Shown here: positions 14,585-24,170 of the stretch, in pieces
Layout of the letters: each line of letters starts with the position of its first letter
Position numbering within the stretch: the first letter of the stretch is position 1
Assembly (NCBI GenBank): GCA_947494695.1
Contig: CANLWB010000004.1
Span: 62,001 to 126,000 of the forward strand
Direction: 5' to 3'
Source: an uncultured Flavobacteriaceae bacterium
GTDB lineage: Bacteria; Bacteroidota; Bacteroidia; Flavobacteriales; Flavobacteriaceae
DNA length: 64,000 bases
Notes under the pieces: model-generated
What the model was told of the DNA's origin: nothing
The model's input: only the letters and a program-made list of their open reading frames with translations
Databases searched by the model: none
Position numbers and translations under genes: made by a program

Positions 14585-17500
14585 ATGAAATACAAGGTCT
14601 GTATATTGTTTTTATTGACCATTCATTGCTCTATTTCTTTTGGTCAGACTCATAAAATTGACAGTTTAAAGCATGTCTTTTTAAGTGAAGATACGACCGA
14701 TTCTTTGAGGTTTAATGCTGGAAGAGAGGCTGTTATAGGTCTCTTTAGGTCTAATCTGGATTCTGCCAGAGTTTTTGGACAAGACGTTTTAAAATTTGCT
14801 GAGTCTAGAAAAAATAAAGGCTGGGAGGCCAGCTCACTACGTCTTATTGGGAATACTTACGCGATTCAGGGTCGTTTTAGAGAAGCGTTGAAATATTTTA
14901 CGGGGAGTCATGATCTTTTAATTAAACTGTCTGATAAAAAAGGAATGGCCACAACCTATAATAATATAGGAACAGTACATTACGAATTGGGAAATTTTCC
15001 CATAGCACTAAGTAACTTATTAAAAGGGTTGAAAATCGCTGAGGAAATTGATGATAAAACAAACCAGGCCAGGCTTACCAATAATTTAGGTAATGTATAT
15101 ATAAGGCAGAAAAATCAAGAAAAGGCTTTGGAATATCTTTTGTATAGTCTTAAGCTTAAAGAAAACATGGGGAATAAAAGGACCTTGCCTCATGCCTATA
15201 ATAATGTAGGATTGGTGTACACTAATCTCGAAAAATATGATTTAGCATTAAGTCATCTATTAAAAAGCGTTGAGATTTCTGAAGGCCTTGGAGATAAAAG
15301 GTCTTCGACAAGGGCCTATAGTAATATTGGAGAATTATATGGGAAACAAGGTCAGTTTTTAAAAGCACGGGAATATTTTAATAAAAGTATTGAGATAAAG
15401 GAAAGTATAGGAGACCAGGAAGGTCTTATATCTGCCTACCTATATAGAGGTGGTTCTTACCTGAACACCAAAAACTATGTGCAAGCCAAAGAGAACTGTG
15501 AGAAAAGTTATGAGCTAGCAAAGGACATGAGTGTTTTAATTGCTAAAAAAGAGTCTTGTGAATGCTTAAGCAAGGCCTGGGAGAAGCTAGGAAGCTCCAA
15601 AAAAGCATTGCATTATTATAGATTATCCATTCAGGCCAAAGATTCACTGTTTAATAAGGAAAAAACCCAGGAAATTACACGTCAGGACATGCAGTATCAA
15701 TTTGAAAAGCAACAGCTGGCAGATAGTATGGCGTTTAATAAGCAACAGGCTGCGCAGGAATTAAAGTTTGTAAACGACCTAAACAAGCAGCAAAATAAAT
15801 TAAACCTTATTGTTTTTGGAGGTTTGGGATTACTGTTAATAGGCATTGTTTATTGGCGTTCCAGACAAAAAAGTATGAAACTGGCACAGGAGCGTAATGT
15901 GATAAACAGACTAAAACAGGTGGATCAACTCAAAGATCAGTTTTTGGCAAATACATCCCACGAATTACGAACACCTTTAAATGGTATCATCGGGTTATCT
16001 GAATCTCTTAAAGATGGTGTGGCCGGTAAATTATCTGCCAGAGCCATTGATAATTTAGATATGATTGTAAATAGTGGTAAACGTCTCTCAAACTTGGTTA
16101 ATGATATTCTCGACTTTTCTAAATTAAAAAATAAAGACCTTGAACTGTCGCTCCAACCTACAGATGTTTACGCAGTGGCGGATTCGGTTTTAAAAGTTTC
16201 AGAGTTTTTAATCACAGGGAAGGAGCTTCGCCTTACAAACAACATTTCTAAAAGTATTGTATTGGTTGAAGCAGATGAAAACCGATTGGAGCAAATTCTG
16301 TATAACCTTATTGGAAATGCAATTAAGTTTACCGAAACGGGAAATATAGAGGTTAGTGCTTTAGAAGAGCAAGGCATGCTATCGGTTTCAATATCCGATA
16401 CAGGAATTGGGATCCCTGAAGAACAATTTGATACCATTTTTAAATCCTTCGAGCAGGCCGACGGGTCTACCTCCAGGACTTACGGAGGTACGGGACTGGG
16501 GCTTTCGGTAACCAAACAATTGGTAGAACTTCATGGCGGTACTATTACAGTGAAATCTGAAGTAAATAAAGGATCTGTGTTTACATTTACCCTACCCATA
16601 AGTAAACAAGATAGAAAGGAATTTAACGAAGCAGTAACCGGGGAGTCATCACCTAAAGTTCAAAGCATCGATACGAGTAATGAAAACCTGGAAGACCACG
16701 TTTCTAAGTCTGTTAATACGAGTATACGCATTCTTATTGTAGATGATATGATTGTGAACCGACGGGTTTTGGAAAATCATTTAACACTGGCAGGATATCA
16801 GGTGGAAGAAGCGGGAAGTGGGAAGGAAGCACTTAAACTCATAGAAGAAGGTAATTTCGATTTGGTGCTTTTAGATATTATGATGCCTAATATGTCTGGC
16901 TATGAGGTTTGTGAAAAAATAAGAGAACATTATTTAACCAGTGAGCTACCAGTTGTTCTGTTAACAGCTAAAAATAGGGTTAGCGACCTGGTTGCTGGTT
17001 TTAATGTAGGAGCTAACGATTACTTAACCAAACCATTTTCTAAAAACGAATTATTAAGCCGAATAAAAACACACTTAAACCTTAACGGCATTCACAAAGC
17101 TACAAGCCGTTTCGTGCCTTCCGAGTTCTTAAAATCTGTAGGACGAGACGCTATAACCGATGTTGTTTTAGGAGACCATATAGAAAAGAAAGTAACCGTA
17201 TTGTTTACAGATGTTAGAGATTATACAAACCTGTCCGAATCCATGACCCCAGAGCAGAATTTCAAATTTGTAAATGCTTATGTTGGACGAATGGGACCTA
17301 TTATTCAGGAGAATGATGGATTTGTAAATCAATATTTAGGGGATGGGATTATGGCATTGTTTCCAGAACATGCCGGACAAGCCTTAAAGGCAGCTGTTGA
17401 AATGCAAAAGACCATTCAGAATTATAACATAAAACGTATGCAAGAAGGATATAAACCCATTTCGGTAGGGATGGGACTTCATACCGGTGACCTGGTTATG

Positions 17501-17959
17501 GGAATTATTGGTGATGTGTATAGAAATGATACTGCTATTATTGCAGATACGGTAAATACCGCTTCTAGAATGGAAGGCGTTACTAAATACTATGGTGCAA
17601 ACATCATTATTAGTGAGGATAGCTTAAATACCATTGAGAATAAAGAAGATTTTAATTTTAGGTATTTAGGAAAGGTTAAAGTGAAAGGGAAAAATGATAT
17701 TATCCCCATATATGAATGTTTCGATGGAGATTCTCAAGAAACCATTCAATTAAAAACAAGTACCCTAAAACATTTTGAAAAAGGATTGAAGCATTTTTAC
17801 AGGCATGAATTCCCAAAGGCTTCAGCTGCTTTCGATACGGTTTTAAGAAAAAACCCTAAAGATCATATAGCGAAATATTTTGTAACCAAATCGGCTGAAT
17901 ATATGATTGCCGGAACTCCTGATGATTGGGACATGGTGAATAAAATGGAAAAAAAATAA
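14585..17959 (+). CDS. TPR-histidine kinase-receiver-nucleotide cyclase fusion protein
   Basis: 1124 residues. Order seen: signal peptide (1-21); about seven TPR repeats (50-370; for example AYNNVGLVYTNLEKYDLALSH); coiled coil; one membrane helix (LNLIVFGGLGLLLIGIVYW); HisKA with phospho-acceptor His459 (NTSHELRTPLNG); HATPase_c (NLIGNAIKF, DTGIGIPEEQ, GGTGLGLSV); receiver domain with Asp764 (LLDIMMPNMSG); class III cyclase domain (about 865-1050); short TPR-like tail. The cyclase keeps both metal Asp residues (876 in FTDVRDYT, 920 in YLGDGIMAL) and the Asn/Arg pair (VNTASRME). The adenine-selecting Lys is Gln (VNQYLGD), so the product (cAMP or cGMP) is open. Its stop is 15 bases from the convergent PFOR gene. 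Confidence 0.88.
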   Translation: MKYKVCILFLLTIHCSISFGQTHKIDSLKHVFLSEDTTDSLRFNAGREAVIGLFRSNLDSARVFGQDVLKFAESRKNKGWEASSLRLIGNTYAIQGRFREALKYFTGSHDLLIKLSDKKGMATTYNNIGTVHYELGNFPIALSNLLKGLKIAEEIDDKTNQARLTNNLGNVYIRQKNQEKALEYLLYSLKLKENMGNKRTLPHAYNNVGLVYTNLEKYDLALSHLLKSVEISEGLGDKRSSTRAYSNIGELYGKQGQFLKAREYFNKSIEIKESIGDQEGLISAYLYRGGSYLNTKNYVQAKENCEKSYELAKDMSVLIAKKESCECLSKAWEKLGSSKKALHYYRLSIQAKDSLFNKEKTQEITRQDMQYQFEKQQLADSMAFNKQQAAQELKFVNDLNKQQNKLNLIVFGGLGLLLIGIVYWRSRQKSMKLAQERNVINRLKQVDQLKDQFLANTSHELRTPLNGIIGLSESLKDGVAGKLSARAIDNLDMIVNSGKRLSNLVNDILDFSKLKNKDLELSLQPTDVYAVADSVLKVSEFLITGKELRLTNNISKSIVLVEADENRLEQILYNLIGNAIKFTETGNIEVSALEEQGMLSVSISDTGIGIPEEQFDTIFKSFEQADGSTSRTYGGTGLGLSVTKQLVELHGGTITVKSEVNKGSVFTFTLPISKQDRKEFNEAVTGESSPKVQSIDTSNENLEDHVSKSVNTSIRILIVDDMIVNRRVLENHLTLAGYQVEEAGSGKEALKLIEEGNFDLVLLDIMMPNMSGYEVCEKIREHYLTSELPVVLLTAKNRVSDLVAGFNVGANDYLTKPFSKNELLSRIKTHLNLNGIHKATSRFVPSEFLKSVGRDAITDVVLGDHIEKKVTVLFTDVRDYTNLSESMTPEQNFKFVNAYVGRMGPIIQENDGFVNQYLGDGIMALFPEHAGQALKAAVEMQKTIQNYNIKRMQEGYKPISVGMGLHTGDLVMGIIGDVYRNDTAIIADTVNTASRMEGVTKYYGANIIISEDSLNTIENKEDFNFRYLGKVKVKGKNDIIPIYECFDGDSQETIQLKTSTLKHFEKGLKHFYRHEFPKASAAFDTVLRKNPKDHIAKYFVTKSAEYMIAGTPDDWDMVNKMEKK

Positions 17960-17974: not shown

Positions 17975-20900
17975 TTACTTTTTATAGGTTAATTGCTGTT
18001 TTATTTTATGGTTTTGAAGCCATTTGGTTCTGCTGATTTGATTAGAACTCATTTGTAAATATCTATTAAAACGTGTATCCACCTGGCTTTGGATATCGCG
18101 AATAACATTCCTAAATGCATTCTTGTTTTTTCTGAATAGTTTAGAAAACCGTGCTTCAAGTTTTAAATAGTCCTGAATAGGCACCGAGGGTACTTCGGAA
18201 TCAAGTTGTAGTGTACTTAGATGCTTTGTTGCACGTCTCGGATCGTTTCTGTATAATAACCATTGTCCCGATTGTACCGCAGCTTTATGATATTTAGAGG
18301 GGTGTTTCATATCAATACCATGAGATGCGCTGTGTGAATAGGCAATGATTATGGATGGCCCTTCAAAACTTTCGGCCTCATTAAACGCTTTTAAGGTTTG
18401 CTCTTGATTTGCTCCAATAGCTACAGATGCGACATAAACATGGTCATAATTCATAGCAAAAAGGCCAAGGTCTTTTTTCTGTTTTTGTTTACCCTGAAAC
18501 GTAAATTTAGCTTCTGATCCAAAAGGCGTCGCTTTTGAGGCTTGTCCACCCGTATTATCGTAAACTTCATTATCAAGAATTAAAATATTTACATTTTTAC
18601 CAGAGGCTACCACATGATCTAAACCCCCAAAACCAATATCGTAAGCCCACCCGTCACCACCAACAATCCAAACGCTTTTTTTAACCAGATGATCAGTCAT
18701 GTTTAAAAGCTGTTTGGCTTCGCTTGAATTCAGGGCTTTAAGGCACATTTTCAACCTTGTAATTCTGGATCGTTGTTGGTTGATTTCCACTTCGGTGGTT
18801 TGCTTGGCGGTTAAAATATCTCGGACTAATTGGGAATCTAATTGATCTTCGAATTTAAGAAGGAGGTTTTTTGCTTGTTGCTCCTGTTGGTCTAATGATA
18901 ATCGATATCCTAAGCCAAATTCGGCATTGTCTTCAAATAAGGAGTTAGACCATGCCGGGCCACGACCTTTATCATTTTTACTCCATGGTGTGGTGGGTAA
19001 AGCACCCCCAAATATTGAACTGGCGCCAGTTGCATTTGCTACTAAAAGCCTATCCCCAAATAATTGTGACATCAGTTTTAAATAGGGGGCTTCCCCGCAT
19101 CCTTCAACACCAATTGAATATTTAAATAGTGGTTCTTGTAGTTGTTGCTGATTTATTTTTGTTGGGTTAATTTTTTCTCTGTCAAATTCCGGAATAGTTT
19201 CAAAATAGGTCCAGTTTTGTTTTTCAGATGCTTCCCTAGTCGATCTGTTTACCATGGTTAATGCTTTTGAGGTGCAGGCATCAACACAGTGGTTACAGCT
19301 ATTACACTGATCTGTATGTATTTGGATCGTGTAATTTAAAAGGTCTACATCCCAATCGGTTTCAGTCGATTTTACATGTTTAAAGCTTGAAGGTGACTTT
19401 TCTAAATGCGTATGATCATAGACTTTGATTCTTAGTGCGCCTTGAGGACATGCCATACTGCAAGCTCCACATTGTGTGCACATATCGGGTTGCCATGAGG
19501 GGATAGAAGTGCTCTGTTGAATCGGGTTATACTGTGAGGTATCACTTGGGTATGTGCCATCTGCAGGAAGTAAGCTCACCGGAACGTCGTTACCTTTGTT
19601 TGCCAGTAATTGCCCCAATAACGAGCTATTAAATACTGAATCAAAGCGATGTTGGACGTCTTTAGTGTGGGTAGGTTTGGAAGTACCTACATTATAAATA
19701 TAATCGCTTAACTCCTCATAAGTCGGCTCTTTTCTAAGCGCTAGAAAACAGGCATGTAATATGGATAGATGATGATCTTTTAAGACATTTAATTGTAAAA
19801 GCTCATCACAATCGAAAATGAATAGATTAACCTCTTTTTCTCTTATTTGATGTTGTGTTTTGATTGAAAGCGATTGCCAAAATGCTTTAGATTTTAGCGG
19901 GGTATGAACCAAAAGTGTCCCCTTGTGTTTTAACAAGTCTATGATGTGGTTATACGCAGTAAAGTCGGTATACTGACAGCCTATAAAATCGGCTTGATTG
20001 ATTAAATAAGGTTCTTTAATAGGGGTTTGATTGATTCTTAAGTGAGCCATATTTATGGTGTTAGATTTTTTATAATCGCAATCAATATAACCCTGTACAT
20101 AGGTATTTTGTTGTTTCGCTATAAGTTTTAAAGTGTTAGTGAAACTTTCTGTGGTTGTTTTGTTTTTTTTCTGATAAAATATCGCTTGATAGGTGTTGTT
20201 TTCAATTTGAAGATTGCTTGAGTATTCTAAACTTAGGTTTGTCACATCGTCGTGAATACCTATAGTGAAATTGTTTTTTGGATAGTCTTGCTTTAGATTA
20301 TTAAAAATGGCTTGAACCATTCCTGGATTGAACACTTTAGAAGATAAGCCATAACGCCCACCAACCAGTTTTGGTAAGGATTTTATTTTATTATTTTGAA
20401 AGGCTTCAGAAAGGGATTGAAGGACATCCAAATAAAGCGGTTCTCCGCTGGAGCCCGCTTCTTTAGTGCGGTCTAAAACGGCTATAGATGTTACCGATTT
20501 AGGTAAGGCATCTATGAGGTGTTTTGTACTAAAAGGTCTGAATAACCGAACTTTAATAAGTCCGAACTTTTCCCCAGTATTATTTAAATGTTTAATGGTT
20601 GCTTCAATAGTTTCGGTAGAGGAAGCCATAGAAATGATGATCTGCTCGGCTTTGGGATCTCCAACATAATCAAATAACTGATAAGATCTTCCGGTTAAAG
20701 CAGCAAACATATCCATATGCTTTTGAACAATATCTGGGCAGGCATCGTAAAAAGGATTAATAGCTTCACGGCTTTGAAAAAATACATCAGATTGTTGTGC
20801 TGTACCTCTTATAACGGGTTTGTTTGGGGTTAAAGCACGACTTCTATGGTTTTCAGCGCCTTTTAAATCCATCATAAATTGGATGGTTTCATCTAAGATG

Positions 20901-21457
20901 AGGTCTATTTTATTAATTTCATGAGAGGTTCTAAATCCGTCGAAGAAGTGAACAAAAGGAATGTGGGATTCTAAAGTAGCGGTTTGTGCGATGAGTGCGA
21001 AATCCTGGGCTTCTTGTACCGAGGCGCTTCCCAGCATAGCATATCCAGATTGGCGTACCCCCATAATATCACTGTGGTCTCCAAAAACAGATAAGGCATG
21101 TGTGGCCATACTTCTTGTGGCTACATGAATAACATTTGAAGTAAGCTCTCCAGCAATTCTATACATGTTGGGTAACATGAGTAACAAGCCCTGGGATGCT
21201 GTAAATGTAGATGACAGGGCCCCAGTTTGAAGCGCACCGTGCATAGCACCAGCAACTCCAGCCTCACTTTGCATTTGAAATACAGAAGGGATATTCCCGA
21301 AACTGTTTTCTTTTTTTTCTGCACACCATTGCTCCACCAATTCACTCATTTCCGAAGCAGGTGTAATGGGATAAATGGGGAAAACTTCATTGGTTTTGTA
21401 AGCAATTCGGGCAACCGCCTGATTTGCATTTAGTATGCTTTGTGTTGAAGTATTCAT
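17975..21457 (-). CDS. nifJ: Atypical pyruvate:ferredoxin (flavodoxin) oxidoreductase homologue
   Basis: 1160 residues, colinear with single-chain PFOR, which oxidises pyruvate to acetyl-CoA with TPP and [4Fe-4S] clusters. Substrate and TPP residues are kept: Thr32 (YPITPAS), Glu65 (MQSEAG), Arg115 (HVATRSMATH), and the TPP motif GGDGWAYDIGFGGLDH with YDNTGGQ. Both ferredoxin-type clusters are complete (CTQCGACSMACP, CNSCNHCVDAC). The proximal cluster is not: of the four ligands known from the Desulfovibrio enzyme (Cys812, 815, 840, 1071), only Cys787 remains; the others are Val784 (GVEGCGE), Ala812 (NATGASSI) and Ser1043 (YSHSASHG), with identical spacing. The domain III motif GLGSDGTVGANK is also gone (FYQKKNKTTTESF). 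Fold sure; activity unsure. The gene symbol marks homology only. Confidence 0.85.
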   Translation of the reverse strand: MNTSTQSILNANQAVARIAYKTNEVFPIYPITPASEMSELVEQWCAEKKENSFGNIPSVFQMQSEAGVAGAMHGALQTGALSSTFTASQGLLLMLPNMYRIAGELTSNVIHVATRSMATHALSVFGDHSDIMGVRQSGYAMLGSASVQEAQDFALIAQTATLESHIPFVHFFDGFRTSHEINKIDLILDETIQFMMDLKGAENHRSRALTPNKPVIRGTAQQSDVFFQSREAINPFYDACPDIVQKHMDMFAALTGRSYQLFDYVGDPKAEQIIISMASSTETIEATIKHLNNTGEKFGLIKVRLFRPFSTKHLIDALPKSVTSIAVLDRTKEAGSSGEPLYLDVLQSLSEAFQNNKIKSLPKLVGGRYGLSSKVFNPGMVQAIFNNLKQDYPKNNFTIGIHDDVTNLSLEYSSNLQIENNTYQAIFYQKKNKTTTESFTNTLKLIAKQQNTYVQGYIDCDYKKSNTINMAHLRINQTPIKEPYLINQADFIGCQYTDFTAYNHIIDLLKHKGTLLVHTPLKSKAFWQSLSIKTQHQIREKEVNLFIFDCDELLQLNVLKDHHLSILHACFLALRKEPTYEELSDYIYNVGTSKPTHTKDVQHRFDSVFNSSLLGQLLANKGNDVPVSLLPADGTYPSDTSQYNPIQQSTSIPSWQPDMCTQCGACSMACPQGALRIKVYDHTHLEKSPSSFKHVKSTETDWDVDLLNYTIQIHTDQCNSCNHCVDACTSKALTMVNRSTREASEKQNWTYFETIPEFDREKINPTKINQQQLQEPLFKYSIGVEGCGEAPYLKLMSQLFGDRLLVANATGASSIFGGALPTTPWSKNDKGRGPAWSNSLFEDNAEFGLGYRLSLDQQEQQAKNLLLKFEDQLDSQLVRDILTAKQTTEVEINQQRSRITRLKMCLKALNSSEAKQLLNMTDHLVKKSVWIVGGDGWAYDIGFGGLDHVVASGKNVNILILDNEVYDNTGGQASKATPFGSEAKFTFQGKQKQKKDLGLFAMNYDHVYVASVAIGANQEQTLKAFNEAESFEGPSIIIAYSHSASHGIDMKHPSKYHKAAVQSGQWLLYRNDPRRATKHLSTLQLDSEVPSVPIQDYLKLEARFSKLFRKNKNAFRNVIRDIQSQVDTRFNRYLQMSSNQISRTKWLQNHKIKQQLTYKK

Positions 21458-21605: not shown

Positions 21606-22160
21606 TTACTGCTTTACAATTTCGATGGAAACCGGAGTGGGGTTGGTTAACATATCGAATACAGGTGAGAACTTAGCTAAATTTTCAAGTTGTTCAGCTG
21701 ATGCGTCAGATTTCACATTGAGTACCATTTTGATGCCATCAAAGCCTTGGCGTATTTCTGGGTTCAATCCTAAAAAACCGTGAAGGTCAATATCACCTTT
21801 TAAGGTAGAATCGGCACTCTCAATATCGATACCGTTGGCCGCAGCATGATAGGTCATAGCAGCAGTTAGACATGATCCCAAGGCGTGTAATACAACTTCT
21901 GGTGGGGTTGCTGCTTTGTCTTTGCCTAGTAATACATTAGGATGATCGCATGCCATACTAAATGTTTCTTCACGAGTGGAATCTTCCTGACCTACGCCAT
22001 AAAAACTTTTAATATCGGTAACACAATGTCCACCTTCTATCCAATCGTTTTTAGCTCTAAATTCGAATTTTGCTAATTCAGGGTTTTGTTGAACGGCTCC
22101 AATCGTTTCTACTAATTGGTCTACATTTACTCCGTTTTTGATGTTTGATGTTGTAATCAT
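21606..22160 (-). CDS. OsmC family protein
   Basis: 184 residues of the OsmC/Ohr fold, whose members reduce organic hydroperoxides or act as thiol-dependent peroxidases. The hallmark helix with the first reactive cysteine is GSCLTAAMTYHAAANGIDIE, near residue 91. The second cysteine position of classical Ohr is less clear; CDHPNVLLG at about 68-76 supplies one candidate. It is preceded by a sigma-54-type promoter (22207-22223) and follows the sigma-54 activator gene on the same strand. This suggests that the activator drives it. With bacillithiol synthesis encoded in the window, a thiol-linked peroxide role is plausible but not shown. Confidence 0.88.
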   Translation of the reverse strand: MITTSNIKNGVNVDQLVETIGAVQQNPELAKFEFRAKNDWIEGGHCVTDIKSFYGVGQEDSTREETFSMACDHPNVLLGKDKAATPPEVVLHALGSCLTAAMTYHAAANGIDIESADSTLKGDIDLHGFLGLNPEIRQGFDGIKMVLNVKSDASAEQLENLAKFSPVFDMLTNPTPVSIEIVKQ

Positions 22161-22206
22161 TTTTTCTAATTTTTAAAGTGTTAAACGTTTTGTTTGGTTG
22201 ATAAGA

Positions 22207-22223
22207 TGCTAATGGCATGCCAA
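22207..22223 (-). promoter_or_regulatory. Sigma-54-type promoter of osmC
   Basis: On the minus strand TTGGCATGCCATTAGCA, with GG and GC separated by exactly 10 bases (-24/-12). It matches YTGGCACGRNNNTTGCW at every defined position except three. The start would be near 22196, leaving a 35-base leader. It is the only GG-N10-GC of this quality that I noticed, and it lies next to a sigma-54 activator gene. Confidence 0.65.
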
Positions 22224-22281: not shown

Positions 22282-22333
22282 ACGATATTTCATAAATTAA
22301 CGATATTTCGTTAGTTTATTTATGAGATCTCGT
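22282..22333 (-). promoter_or_regulatory. Repeated sites, candidate upstream activator binding region
   Basis: ACGATATTTC occurs twice (22282-22291 and 22300-22309), and a third, inverted and slightly different copy, GAGATCTCGT, is at 22324-22333. The second copy is part of the palindrome AACGATATTTCGTT. They lie about 60-125 bases upstream of the sigma-54-type promoter, the usual distance for enhancer sites. Confidence 0.5.
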
Positions 22334-22337
22334 GAAT

Positions 22338-24170
22338 TTATAAAGGGCGCTCTATGCCTAATGCTTTGATTCTGGATGACAGTGTGGTGGGAGGGATCTG
22401 AAGTAAAGCAGCAGCTCCGTTTGTACCCGAAATCTTCCATCGGGTTTGCTTAAGTGCTTTTAAAATGTTCTCTTTTTCCAGGGCAGTAAGTTCTGTTGAG
22501 GTTAAGATTTTATCTTTAGACGTATTCTGGGGGTTTTCGGCTATTTGTGTATGGCCAGGGATAATGTTTTGCCAGTTTATGTTCCCGTGTTTTGAAACGA
22601 TCACAGCACGTTCAATTAAGTTTTGTAGTTCCCTAACATTACCAGGCCAATGATATGAGATTAACAACTGTTTGTCGGCTTCAGATAAAGCAATGCCCGG
22701 TTTGTTAAGTTTTTTTGAAAACTGGGAGATCATGTCTTCGGCAATTAAGCAAATATCATTCCCACGGTCTCTAAGAGCCGGCACTTGAATAGGGAAAACA
22801 TTGAGTCTATAGTAAAGGTCTTCTCGAAACTTCCCTGCTTTGGAAAACTCATAAAGGTTTCTGTGGGTTGCAGCAATGATTCTCACATCTACTTTAATGG
22901 TTTCGGAGCTTCCTACAGGATCGAATTCACCTTCTTGTATAATACGCAGGAGTTTAGGTTGCAGTTCTAAGGGCATTTCTCCAATTTCATCTAAAAAGAT
23001 GGTTCCCTTATCTGCTAGAAGAAAACGTCCTTTTCTGCTTATTGTAGCTCCTGTAAAGGCTCCTTTTTCATGTCCGAACAGCTCACTTTCAATGAGGTTT
23101 GTTGGTATGGCACCGCAGTTAATTCGAATTAAAGGCTTGTCATTTCTATGGCTTTCACTATGAATGGCTCTGGCTACCAATTCCTTACCGGTCCCGGTTT
23201 CTCCGTTTATGAGCACGGTAGCATCGGTTTTTGCCACTTGATGAATTAGATTTAAAGCGTCTTTCATGCTTTTATCTTCTGCTATAATACCGTAGCTGCT
23301 TGTGAGTTCCTGAATTTCTTCAGTAAGATATTCGGTTTGTTTGGTTAACAGGTTTATTTTGTCTTCAGCCACAAGACGTTCTTCAATATTTCTCAGAATA
23401 AGCGTGTAAAAAGTCTTTGTGCTTGTGCCATATGTACTTATGGTGCCTTCGTTTAAAGTTTCGGCACCATGTGATCCAATGACTTTTACAATATCGGGGA
23501 GATACCTATTCATAGAGGCTTCATGCGCTTCGTTTTTTACTATCGATTCGATCAAATGGGCACTTTCTTCATCAAAGAAGAACAAAACGTTACGTTGCAA
23601 GCTGTCGTCATTCTCCAACAATTTGTTTGCAGATGGATTTGTGAGTACAATTCTAAAATCCTTGTTAAACATGATTATTGCATCCATCGCGCCATTAATG
23701 AGTCCGCTTAGTTTACTATTGGCAAATTCAATGTCTTGTTTAGAGGAGGCCAGTCGCTCTTGTATAACATCCAATTCGCGATGGCGTTTTATCATTACCG
23801 ATAAAATTCCCTGAGCAAACCCGCTATCGGTTTTAATCAGATTTAAAAAGTGCTCACGTTCTATTTTTAGGACTTTGGTTTTTTCTATAGCAGTAACCGT
23901 TGCAGAACGTGTTTCATTATCTATAAGGGCGTATTCGCCAAAGCAGTCGCCCGTGGTTAGAGTGTCGTAAACATGTTTTTTATCATGGACTTTTACACGA
24001 CCATTTAAAACTGCATACATGGAATTTCCAGCCGTATCTTTTTCAAAAATAACCTCGTTTTTTATATAGGTTTCTTCCGTGACGTTATTGCACAAATGCT
24101 GAAGAGACGTTTTCGAAACTTCAGAAAAAAATGGAATTTCAACTAAAAAGTTTATGAGGGATGGCGTCAC
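22338..24170 (-). CDS. Sigma-54-dependent activator with cyclic-nucleotide-binding and PAS domains
   Basis: 610 residues, GTG start at 24170. Domains in order: cyclic-nucleotide-binding domain (about 10-125) with an intact phosphate-binding cassette, FGEYALIDNETRSATV; PAS domain (about 150-270, LINGAMDAIIMFNKDFRIVLTN); sigma-54 AAA+ domain (about 300-535) with Walker A NGETGTGKELVARAIH, the sigma-54 contact loop GAFTGA, Walker B IFLDEIGEMP and the Arg finger region YYRLNVFPI; Fis-type helix-turn-helix at the end (ISGTNGAAALLQIPPTTLSSRI). It activates RNA polymerase carrying sigma-54 by ATP hydrolysis. A cyclic-nucleotide sensor on such a protein is unusual. The osmC gene and its sigma-54 promoter follow on the same strand. 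Confidence 0.9.
   Translation of the reverse strand: MTPSLINFLVEIPFFSEVSKTSLQHLCNNVTEETYIKNEVIFEKDTAGNSMYAVLNGRVKVHDKKHVYDTLTTGDCFGEYALIDNETRSATVTAIEKTKVLKIEREHFLNLIKTDSGFAQGILSVMIKRHRELDVIQERLASSKQDIEFANSKLSGLINGAMDAIIMFNKDFRIVLTNPSANKLLENDDSLQRNVLFFFDEESAHLIESIVKNEAHEASMNRYLPDIVKVIGSHGAETLNEGTISTYGTSTKTFYTLILRNIEERLVAEDKINLLTKQTEYLTEEIQELTSSYGIIAEDKSMKDALNLIHQVAKTDATVLINGETGTGKELVARAIHSESHRNDKPLIRINCGAIPTNLIESELFGHEKGAFTGATISRKGRFLLADKGTIFLDEIGEMPLELQPKLLRIIQEGEFDPVGSSETIKVDVRIIAATHRNLYEFSKAGKFREDLYYRLNVFPIQVPALRDRGNDICLIAEDMISQFSKKLNKPGIALSEADKQLLISYHWPGNVRELQNLIERAVIVSKHGNINWQNIIPGHTQIAENPQNTSKDKILTSTELTALEKENILKALKQTRWKISGTNGAAALLQIPPTTLSSRIKALGIERPL

Follow-up and report, generated by a model that had tools for sequence, protein, structure and literature searches.

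The window analysed here, 64,000 nucleotides from an uncultured Flavobacteriaceae bacterium (contig CANLWB010000004.1, positions 62,001 to 126,000), carries a gene for a homologue of pyruvate:ferredoxin oxidoreductase (PFOR) that has lost three of the four cysteine ligands of the proximal [4Fe-4S] cluster as well as the coenzyme A (CoA) loop of domain III. The residues for thiamine pyrophosphate (TPP) and pyruvate and the cysteines of both ferredoxin-type clusters are retained. Proximal cluster and CoA are what define the mechanism of PFOR. We tentatively propose that this variant acts on pyruvate or a similar 2-oxoacid as a decarboxylase or carboligase that needs no CoA, and that it is expressed together with an OsmC-like thiol protein from a sigma-54-dependent operon. 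The relevant features of the gene, in positions of the window, are as follows.

17975..21457, minus strand: PFOR-derived TPP protein of 1160 amino acids, with proximal-cluster ligands and CoA loop lost (from open reading frame, profiles and alignments)
20141..20179, minus strand: residues 427-439, the replaced domain III loop (GLGSDGTVGANK region; placed by alignment and presumed to correspond to the CoA P-loop of PMC8091585)
19274..19480, minus strand: residues 660-728, two intact four-cysteine ferredoxin motifs
19106..19108, minus strand: codon of Val784 (cysteine in ordinary PFORs)
19097..19099, minus strand: codon of Cys787, the sole proximal ligand kept
19022..19024, minus strand: codon of Ala812 (cysteine in ordinary PFORs)
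18329..18331, minus strand: codon of Ser1043 (cysteine in ordinary PFORs)

Loss of the proximal-cluster ligands and of the CoA loop

The frame is open over 1160 codons on the minus strand, and the opposite (plus) strand holds 83 stops. Its product matched the Pfam families POR_N, PFOR_II, EKR, Fer4 and TPP_enzyme_C, and the NCBIfam model for single-chain PFOR (TIGR02176) scored it at 1362 bits against a cut-off of 911; its overall homology and domain order are thus those of single-chain PFOR. The best matches among solved structures were the PFOR chains 6cin, 7plm and 1b0p of the PDB, which we take to be the Moorella and Desulfovibrio africanus enzymes. No second match to the variant was found in the window's genome at E 0.001, and a pyruvate dehydrogenase E1 gene of the same genome scored over its family cut-off.

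Positions 784, 787 and 812 of the window protein aligned without gaps with the CxxC...C ligands of the three structures, the printed alignment covering the first three ligands; Val784 presumably corresponds to Cys812 of the D. africanus enzyme in the numbering of an earlier, sequence-only reading of this locus. We compared 40 variant rows, including the window protein, which came from the family sample described below and from one named Arenibacter genome. L105 was included in these final counts, while L037 (at a contig end) and L041 (divergent, with a truncated C-terminus) were left out of the column statistics. Position 784 was never cysteine (Val in 32 rows, Glu in three, Asp in two, and Ile, Ala and Ser in one each), position 812 was Ala in 32 rows and Ser in eight, and position 1043 was Ser in all 38 readable rows. 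Position 787, on the other hand, was cysteine in 40 of 40, and this lone cysteine is a feature that simple loss leaves unexplained. The 39 ordinary PFOR rows (11 from the family, 28 from the phylum) had cysteine at the first three ligand positions throughout and at the fourth in all 24 readable rows, 15 rows ending before it. Only one member of the four-cysteine ligand set of single-chain PFOR is therefore left in the variant. Two residues from the lost ligand 1043, position 1041 was cysteine in 31 of 39 readable variant rows and is Ser in the window protein. From these substitutions, the proximal cluster itself is presumably absent.

The rest of the electron-transfer and TPP machinery was preserved. 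All eight cysteines that ligate the medial and distal ferredoxin clusters were found in 40 of 40 variant rows, as were Thr32, Glu65 and Arg115, and the window protein contains NTGGQ. The set of TPP and pyruvate residues of single-chain PFOR (Thr32, Glu65, Arg115, GDG and NTG) is thus present; the roles of these residues are assumed here from general knowledge or from the earlier reading. A consistent change was seen at position 963, which was Thr in 39 of 39 ordinary PFORs versus Asn in 39 of 39 readable variants. We take the Thr to be a magnesium ligand in D. africanus PFOR. According to an excerpt of PMC5020499, Asn serves at the magnesium site of StOFOR1, a 2-oxoacid:ferredoxin oxidoreductase (OFOR) of the archaeon Sulfolobus tokodaii. 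Since the replacing residue is one used at such a site, the TPP site of the variant looks active as judged from its residues.

In domain III, the GLGSDGTVGANK loop of ordinary PFORs reads FYQKKNKTTTESF in the window protein, and the CoA-binding loop of single-chain PFOR was missing from the variant rows checked. The CoA P-loop of Moorella PFOR was located in domain III, according to an excerpt of PMC8091585. Out of 281 columns conserved in ordinary PFORs, 36 were lost in the variants, most of them in domain III and around the proximal ligands. With domain borders that we set approximately, the variants kept 79 of 97 ordinary-conserved columns in domain I, 37 of 44 in domain II, 94 of 112 in domain VI, 13 of 20 in the ferredoxin domain and 5 of 10 in the EKR stretch, and 7 of 57 in domain III. 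Also missing was a short piece of conserved sequence between domains III and IV. Conversely, ten near-invariant residues had been gained specifically by the variants, among them His1057 (36 of 37 rows).

Together these findings bear out the sequence-only reading, which had named Val784, Cys787, Ala812 and Ser1043, the retained TPP residues and ferredoxin-type clusters, the replaced glycine-rich motif of domain III and a gene intact over 1160 residues. The homologue search that it had proposed extended the loss of proximal ligands to every one of the 40 rows. The strand, the operon and the possible sulfur link are added to that reading here. As far as sequence can show, its description of an altered electron and acyl path is also supported: in the rows checked the TPP and ferredoxin residues persist, whereas the domain III loop and all proximal ligands but Cys787 are gone. 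The variant would accordingly descend from, or share descent with, single-chain PFOR, and we would not file it as a PFOR by function because it lacks two of the defining features tested here, namely the full set of proximal ligands and the domain III loop for CoA. Its standard database name, PFOR, is probably wrong.

Distribution, descent and selection

Among the 397 genomes of the family sample, 121 gave a PFOR-like match of any strength. At least 39 of the 397 carry the variant: 38 found by the PFOR search (including G148, where the gene lies at a contig end) and G191. This number is a lower bound because the other matching genomes were sorted by match pattern, with the ligands read in 11 ordinary ones. 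Both the variant and an ordinary PFOR were present in at least three genomes (G154, G194 and G217). The phylum sample comprised 395 genomes, 213 of them with a match at 1e-100. Among the matches listed there, a variant-kind match occurred in G154, of the same family, besides the window's genome, and the 28 rows read at the ligands (L075-L102) all had cysteine at the first three positions; weaker matches of the same class, for instance in G442, G613 and G727, lay outside this ligand reading. The variant group, carried by some marine flavobacteria and with homologues in Pseudozobellia, Arenibacter and Kriegella (L031-L033), was found here only in Flavobacteriaceae.

In a tree built by a quick method without L037 and L105, one branch (support 100, length 0.82) parted 38 variants from 42 ordinary PFORs, three of which belonged to other phyla. 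The midpoint root served for drawing only and falls among the long-branched variants. A single change therefore suffices for the origin of the variant, its direction not being fixed by the tree alone. With ordinary PFORs present in several phyla, it is simpler to assume that the flavobacterial line underwent a loss.

For the three closest variant pairs, the ratio of nonsynonymous to synonymous divergence (dN/dS) was 0.15, 0.13 and 0.14, with 0.10-0.21 in domain III and 0.07-0.12 in the ferredoxin domain. Domain III of the pair L008/L003 gave 0.30, and in no domain did the variant pairs give a finite value above about 0.3. To judge from these ratios, the variant is under purifying selection, less constrained than ordinary PFOR, and is not decaying. 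The earlier view of a selected variant, and the alignment and tree against canonical PFORs that had been suggested as a check on it, thus held: the variants stand on one side of a single well-supported branch, dN/dS is 0.13-0.15, and the operon with its promoter and operators is conserved (see below). A sequencing error or a decaying gene has a negligible probability and is ruled out by 40 rows with the same losses, 1160 intact codons and purifying selection.

Several further observations were made on these genes. In the pair L008/L003, synonymous divergence was about 0.2-0.4 in domains III and V versus more than 1.1 in domains I, II and VI, and this low divergence in domains III and V suggests recent recombination inside the gene. 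In the most divergent variant, L041 (G154:C1:3340244-3343258), the C-terminus is shorter and the region surrounding position 1043 is absent; its genome has an ordinary PFOR as well. Three frames of 1654-1659 residues (L112-L114, in G360, G223 and G132) matched two PFOR TPP domains distantly (26-27% and 31-33%) and are possibly another oxoacid oxidoreductase fusion. An ordinary PFOR (L043) is present in G248, a genome of the window's own genus, in which no OsmC match was found at 1e-30. At G005:C3:181087-181853, stop-interrupted fragments 51-53% identical to the C-terminal part are probably a decayed copy of the variant or of an ordinary PFOR. At six loci (L044-L049), an ordinary flavobacterial PFOR lies near genes resembling two-subunit 2-oxoacid oxidoreductases and, as judged by eye, a small ferredoxin-like gene.

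The OsmC operon and its control

The neighbouring features of the window are listed below.

21606..22160, minus strand: OsmC-like protein of 184 amino acids, presumably the first gene of the operon
22206..22222, minus strand: candidate sigma-54 promoter of the -24/-12 type, TGGCATGCCATTAGCAT (GG-N10-GC box, from conservation)
22282..22333: three palindromic operators in tandem, of the ACGANATNTCGT type and spaced 6 and 10 bases apart
22338..24170, minus strand: sigma-54 activator with a cyclic-nucleotide-binding (CRP-like), a PAS, an AAA+ and a Fis-type helix-turn-helix domain
14585..17959, plus strand: protein with TPR, histidine kinase, receiver and class III nucleotide cyclase parts, a convergent neighbour

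The variant gene lies downstream of an OsmC-like gene in all 31 loci with flanks, and directly so in 30. The sigma-54 activator is found upstream in 29 of these loci, with other open reading frames between it and OsmC in three; the two loci without it are L067 and one at a contig end. A homologue of one of two cyclase proteins was present within the fetched flanks of 28 loci, and a class III cyclase domain was matched by Pfam on one protein of each of the two types. The OsmC gene (at least 66% identity) occurred in 41 of the 397 family genomes, namely all 39 variant genomes plus G378 and G219. Beside OsmC, the latter two encode a cytochrome of the SoxA/TsdA type, DsrE and, by eye, a protein with a Tat-like signal, and elsewhere in the genome they have a two-piece match with a pattern like that of ordinary PFOR. 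The cytochrome/DsrE set is present in five variant loci as well.

The OsmC-like proteins have two invariant cysteines, C46 and C97 (31 of 31), and the window protein has Ser165 where we take the second catalytic cysteine of classical OsmC/Ohr proteins to sit. All 29 activators contain FGE...RS in the cyclic-nucleotide domain, which we assume to be the phosphate-binding cassette of cyclic-nucleotide-responsive regulators, and GAFTGA in the AAA+ domain. On this basis, the activator may bind a cyclic nucleotide made by the neighbouring cyclase.

A strict sigma-54 consensus gave no match before OsmC in 16 loci, and a looser scan for GG-N10-GC found a box; the promoter therefore rests on conservation. 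This box, of the TGGCA type, was present 58-72 bases before OsmC in 26 of 31 loci, and in four of the other five the first half was present with an altered second half (by eye). In the window, 0.09 matches of the loose form were expected. A -24/-12 box with a GAFTGA activator nearby gives the locus the features of a sigma-54-dependent operon. The three palindromes of the window precede the promoter (0.01 and 0.00 expected). The six-gap operator pair (up to two mismatches) occurred in 33 of the 397 genomes, comprising 32 of the 41 genomes with the OsmC island and G140, and its reversed control in eight genomes, none with the island. The ten-gap pair (up to three mismatches) was found in 38 of the 41 island genomes, in G173, G219 and G378 only away from the OsmC promoter; operator patterns at three mismatches are near noise, reversed controls matching in three of six genomes and in 9 of 41.

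We then considered nine operator places away from the OsmC promoter (L131-L139); places at G000:C1, G129:C31, G129:C12, G378:C4, G265:C6 and G173:C1 lay outside this set. Operators preceded TauE-family exporter genes at L133, L135 and L138 (in G169, G219 and G378), and a TlpA-like gene or an operon holding one, with a DsbD_N-like gene, at L131, L134 and L137 (in G148, G219 and G240). Pfam was run on L131, L135 and L137, the DsbD_N matches being below its cut-off, and L133, L134 and L138 were assigned by eye. For each of these six sites, one or both of the operator patterns matched with two mismatches or fewer. A sigma-54-like box in matching geometry was found by script at L131, L135 and L137 and partially, by eye, at L133 and L134; none was seen at L138. 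Among the remaining places, L132 is a regulator copy with its promoter at a contig end, and no TauE- or TlpA-type gene follows the operator at L136 (in a genome without the island) or L139 (three mismatches). The same kind of scan over ten ordinary-PFOR loci (131,010 bases) gave no box with two or more operators, and a combination of promoter and operator was absent at the TauE genes of G000, G019 and G240 (six of nine places). In G148, an arsenite methyltransferase-like gene (below cut-off) opens the operon; the TlpA-like and DsbD_N-like genes follow, together with genes for DsrE, for a protein of the homocysteine S-methyltransferase type and, by eye, for a cysteine desulfurase-like product. 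The recurrence of the operator before TauE- or TlpA-type genes in five related genomes suggests a sulfur- or thiol-stress regulon. In the sulfide response governed by FisR, likewise a sigma-54 activator, TauE is among the targets, according to an excerpt of PMC7315123. For the window's genome a sulfur role is an extrapolation, since no second operator site was found there at two mismatches.

Proposed reaction, alternatives and known systems

For the reaction, the second messenger, the sulfur role and the missing cluster, we infer the following. TPP and a pyruvate-like 2-oxoacid would still bind and be decarboxylated. As neither a proximal cluster to accept electrons nor a CoA loop to supply the thiol would be present, hydroxyethyl-TPP would not be oxidised in the usual way; it would most likely leave as an aldehyde or be passed to a second molecule, as in decarboxylase or carboligase chemistry. 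Acetyl-CoA would no longer be made with ferredoxin, and the ferredoxin-cluster cysteines would have been retained because they serve the structure or a side route for single electrons. The protein would be made with the OsmC thiol protein from one sigma-54 operon, switched by the activator with the cyclic-nucleotide-binding domain, which is probably fed by the neighbouring cyclase, and the operon would be part of a sulfur- or thiol-stress response. A precedent is an S. tokodaii OFOR without the proximal-equivalent cysteines and cluster, which lost CoA-dependent oxidative decarboxylation and kept the non-oxidative reaction, according to excerpts of PMC5020499 and PMC9405506 that report on Yan et al. 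2014. We favour a CoA-free decarboxylase or carboligase because the flavobacterial group resembles a natural form of this mutant state, with the CoA loop removed too, and we put its probability slightly below even.

Several observations weigh against this proposal. All eight ferredoxin cysteines are kept, which would not be expected of a plain non-redox decarboxylase. In the excerpt of PMC9405506, the non-oxidative activity of the S. solfataricus and S. acidocaldarius enzymes needs CoA, thought to be structural, and the CoA loop is lost here. Two ordinary PFOR pairs gave dN/dS of about 0.05 and 0.08, with larger and partly saturated synonymous divergence, so that the variants are less constrained. 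Genomes G378 and G219 (L103, L104) keep the OsmC/sigma-54/cyclase island without the variant, so that the variant either entered an OsmC-centred system or was lost from it. Among the conserved neighbours inspected, a part of the whole set, we recognised no gene for the use of an aldehyde or of acetoin. The sulfur link consists of operator sites in five of 41 island genomes and of gene recurrence without a statistic, and the window's genome has one operator site at up to two mismatches and one further at three. A different thiol stress is also conceivable, given the likeness (below cut-off) of the leading gene in the G148 operon to arsenite methyltransferases.

The kept ferredoxin cysteines and Cys787 would fit a protein that is still a redox enzyme. 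Electrons would then pass to the ferredoxin clusters by another relay, be it Cys787, a cofactor bound where the cluster used to be or slow tunnelling without an intermediate, and the acyl group would go to water or to a different thiol. The invariance of the eight ferredoxin cysteines suggests that electrons still flow, and the low dN/dS of the ferredoxin domain in the three closest pairs points the same way. However, the CoA loop is lost, the sequence offers no obvious substitute relay, and D. africanus PFOR has its proximal cluster positioned between TPP and the medial one, according to an excerpt of PMC5020499. We consider continued redox catalysis unlikely, but more probable than the other alternatives. 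A role without catalysis, in which the protein serves the OsmC system as a TPP-binding scaffold or sensor, would fit the loss of proximal ligands and CoA loop, and the two genomes that dispense with the variant and keep the island; yet Glu65, Thr32 and Arg115 are invariant, domains I and VI are strongly conserved and finite dN/dS stays at or below about 0.3 in every domain, which makes such a role improbable.

Instead, acyl group and electrons might pass from TPP to a persulfide or mixed disulfide on Cys787, which would act like lipoamide in pyruvate dehydrogenase. The PFOR core would then have been rebuilt as a 2-oxoacid-powered persulfide or disulfide reductase in which Cys787 replaces both cluster and CoA, with OsmC as its partner in a cyclic-nucleotide-switched sulfur-stress response. 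In its favour are the retention of Cys787 where the other three ligands were replaced, the two invariant cysteines of OsmC, and the operators that precede TauE genes, TlpA-like genes and the operon containing DsrE and a gene of S-methyltransferase type. Nevertheless, the possible partner Cys1041 is Ser in the window protein, the sulfur link is indirect, and we know of no biochemical precedent; both the reaction and the wider scenario seem to us rather improbable. Very unlikely, finally, is an ordinary PFOR with its proximal cluster held by other ligands: Cys787, Cys1041 (31 of 39 readable rows), Asp or Glu at position 784 in five rows and the gained His1057 could be invoked, but the window protein has Val784 and Ser1041 and lacks the CoA loop too, and His1057, the most plausible of the ten gained residues and a candidate by sequence only, lies 14 residues past the lost fourth ligand.

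Flavobacteria with the variant probably lack the ferredoxin-linked acetyl-CoA route. Metabolic reconstructions would credit them with it, since the score of the variant in the curated model is far over the PFOR cut-off. A natural lineage without proximal ligands and CoA loop, with TPP residues and ferredoxin cysteines kept, also offers an evolutionary test of which parts of the PFOR mechanism are separable, and the operon adds a concrete regulatory hypothesis that joins cyclic nucleotide, sigma-54, OsmC and sulfur. Among the open-licence papers listed by our searches, no description of the variant group was found in the titles and opening lines of abstracts.

Compared with known systems, the variant shares with single-chain PFOR (TIGR02176; D. 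africanus, Moorella) the domain order, the TPP and pyruvate residues and the cysteines of two ferredoxin clusters, and differs in lacking three of four proximal ligands, the domain III loop and the III-IV stretch, and in belonging to an OsmC operon. According to excerpts of PMC5020499 and PMC9405506, the ligand-cysteine mutants of the two-subunit S. tokodaii OFOR likewise have a TPP core without a proximal-type cluster and decarboxylate without oxidation. These are, however, laboratory mutants of an enzyme with no ferredoxin domain, whereas the flavobacterial ligand loss is natural and common to the rows checked. The bifunctional POR/PDC enzymes of hyperthermophiles (pyruvate:ferredoxin oxidoreductase and pyruvate decarboxylase in one) are PFOR-type enzymes able to release acetaldehyde, but are CoA-dependent, oxidising and equipped with [4Fe-4S] clusters in the excerpts of PMC4030962 and PMC9405506. 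Moorella oxalate oxidoreductase is an OFOR relative that works without CoA, although it holds three [4Fe-4S] clusters (excerpt of PMC5020499). For the regulation, the nearest parallel is the FisR sulfide-response regulon as excerpted from PMC7315123, which has a Fis-type sigma-54 activator and a TauE-type exporter among its targets. The FisR targets SQR and persulfide dioxygenase lay outside the searches made. The flavobacterial activator differs in its CRP-like plus PAS sensor part and in its main target, OsmC with the PFOR-like gene.

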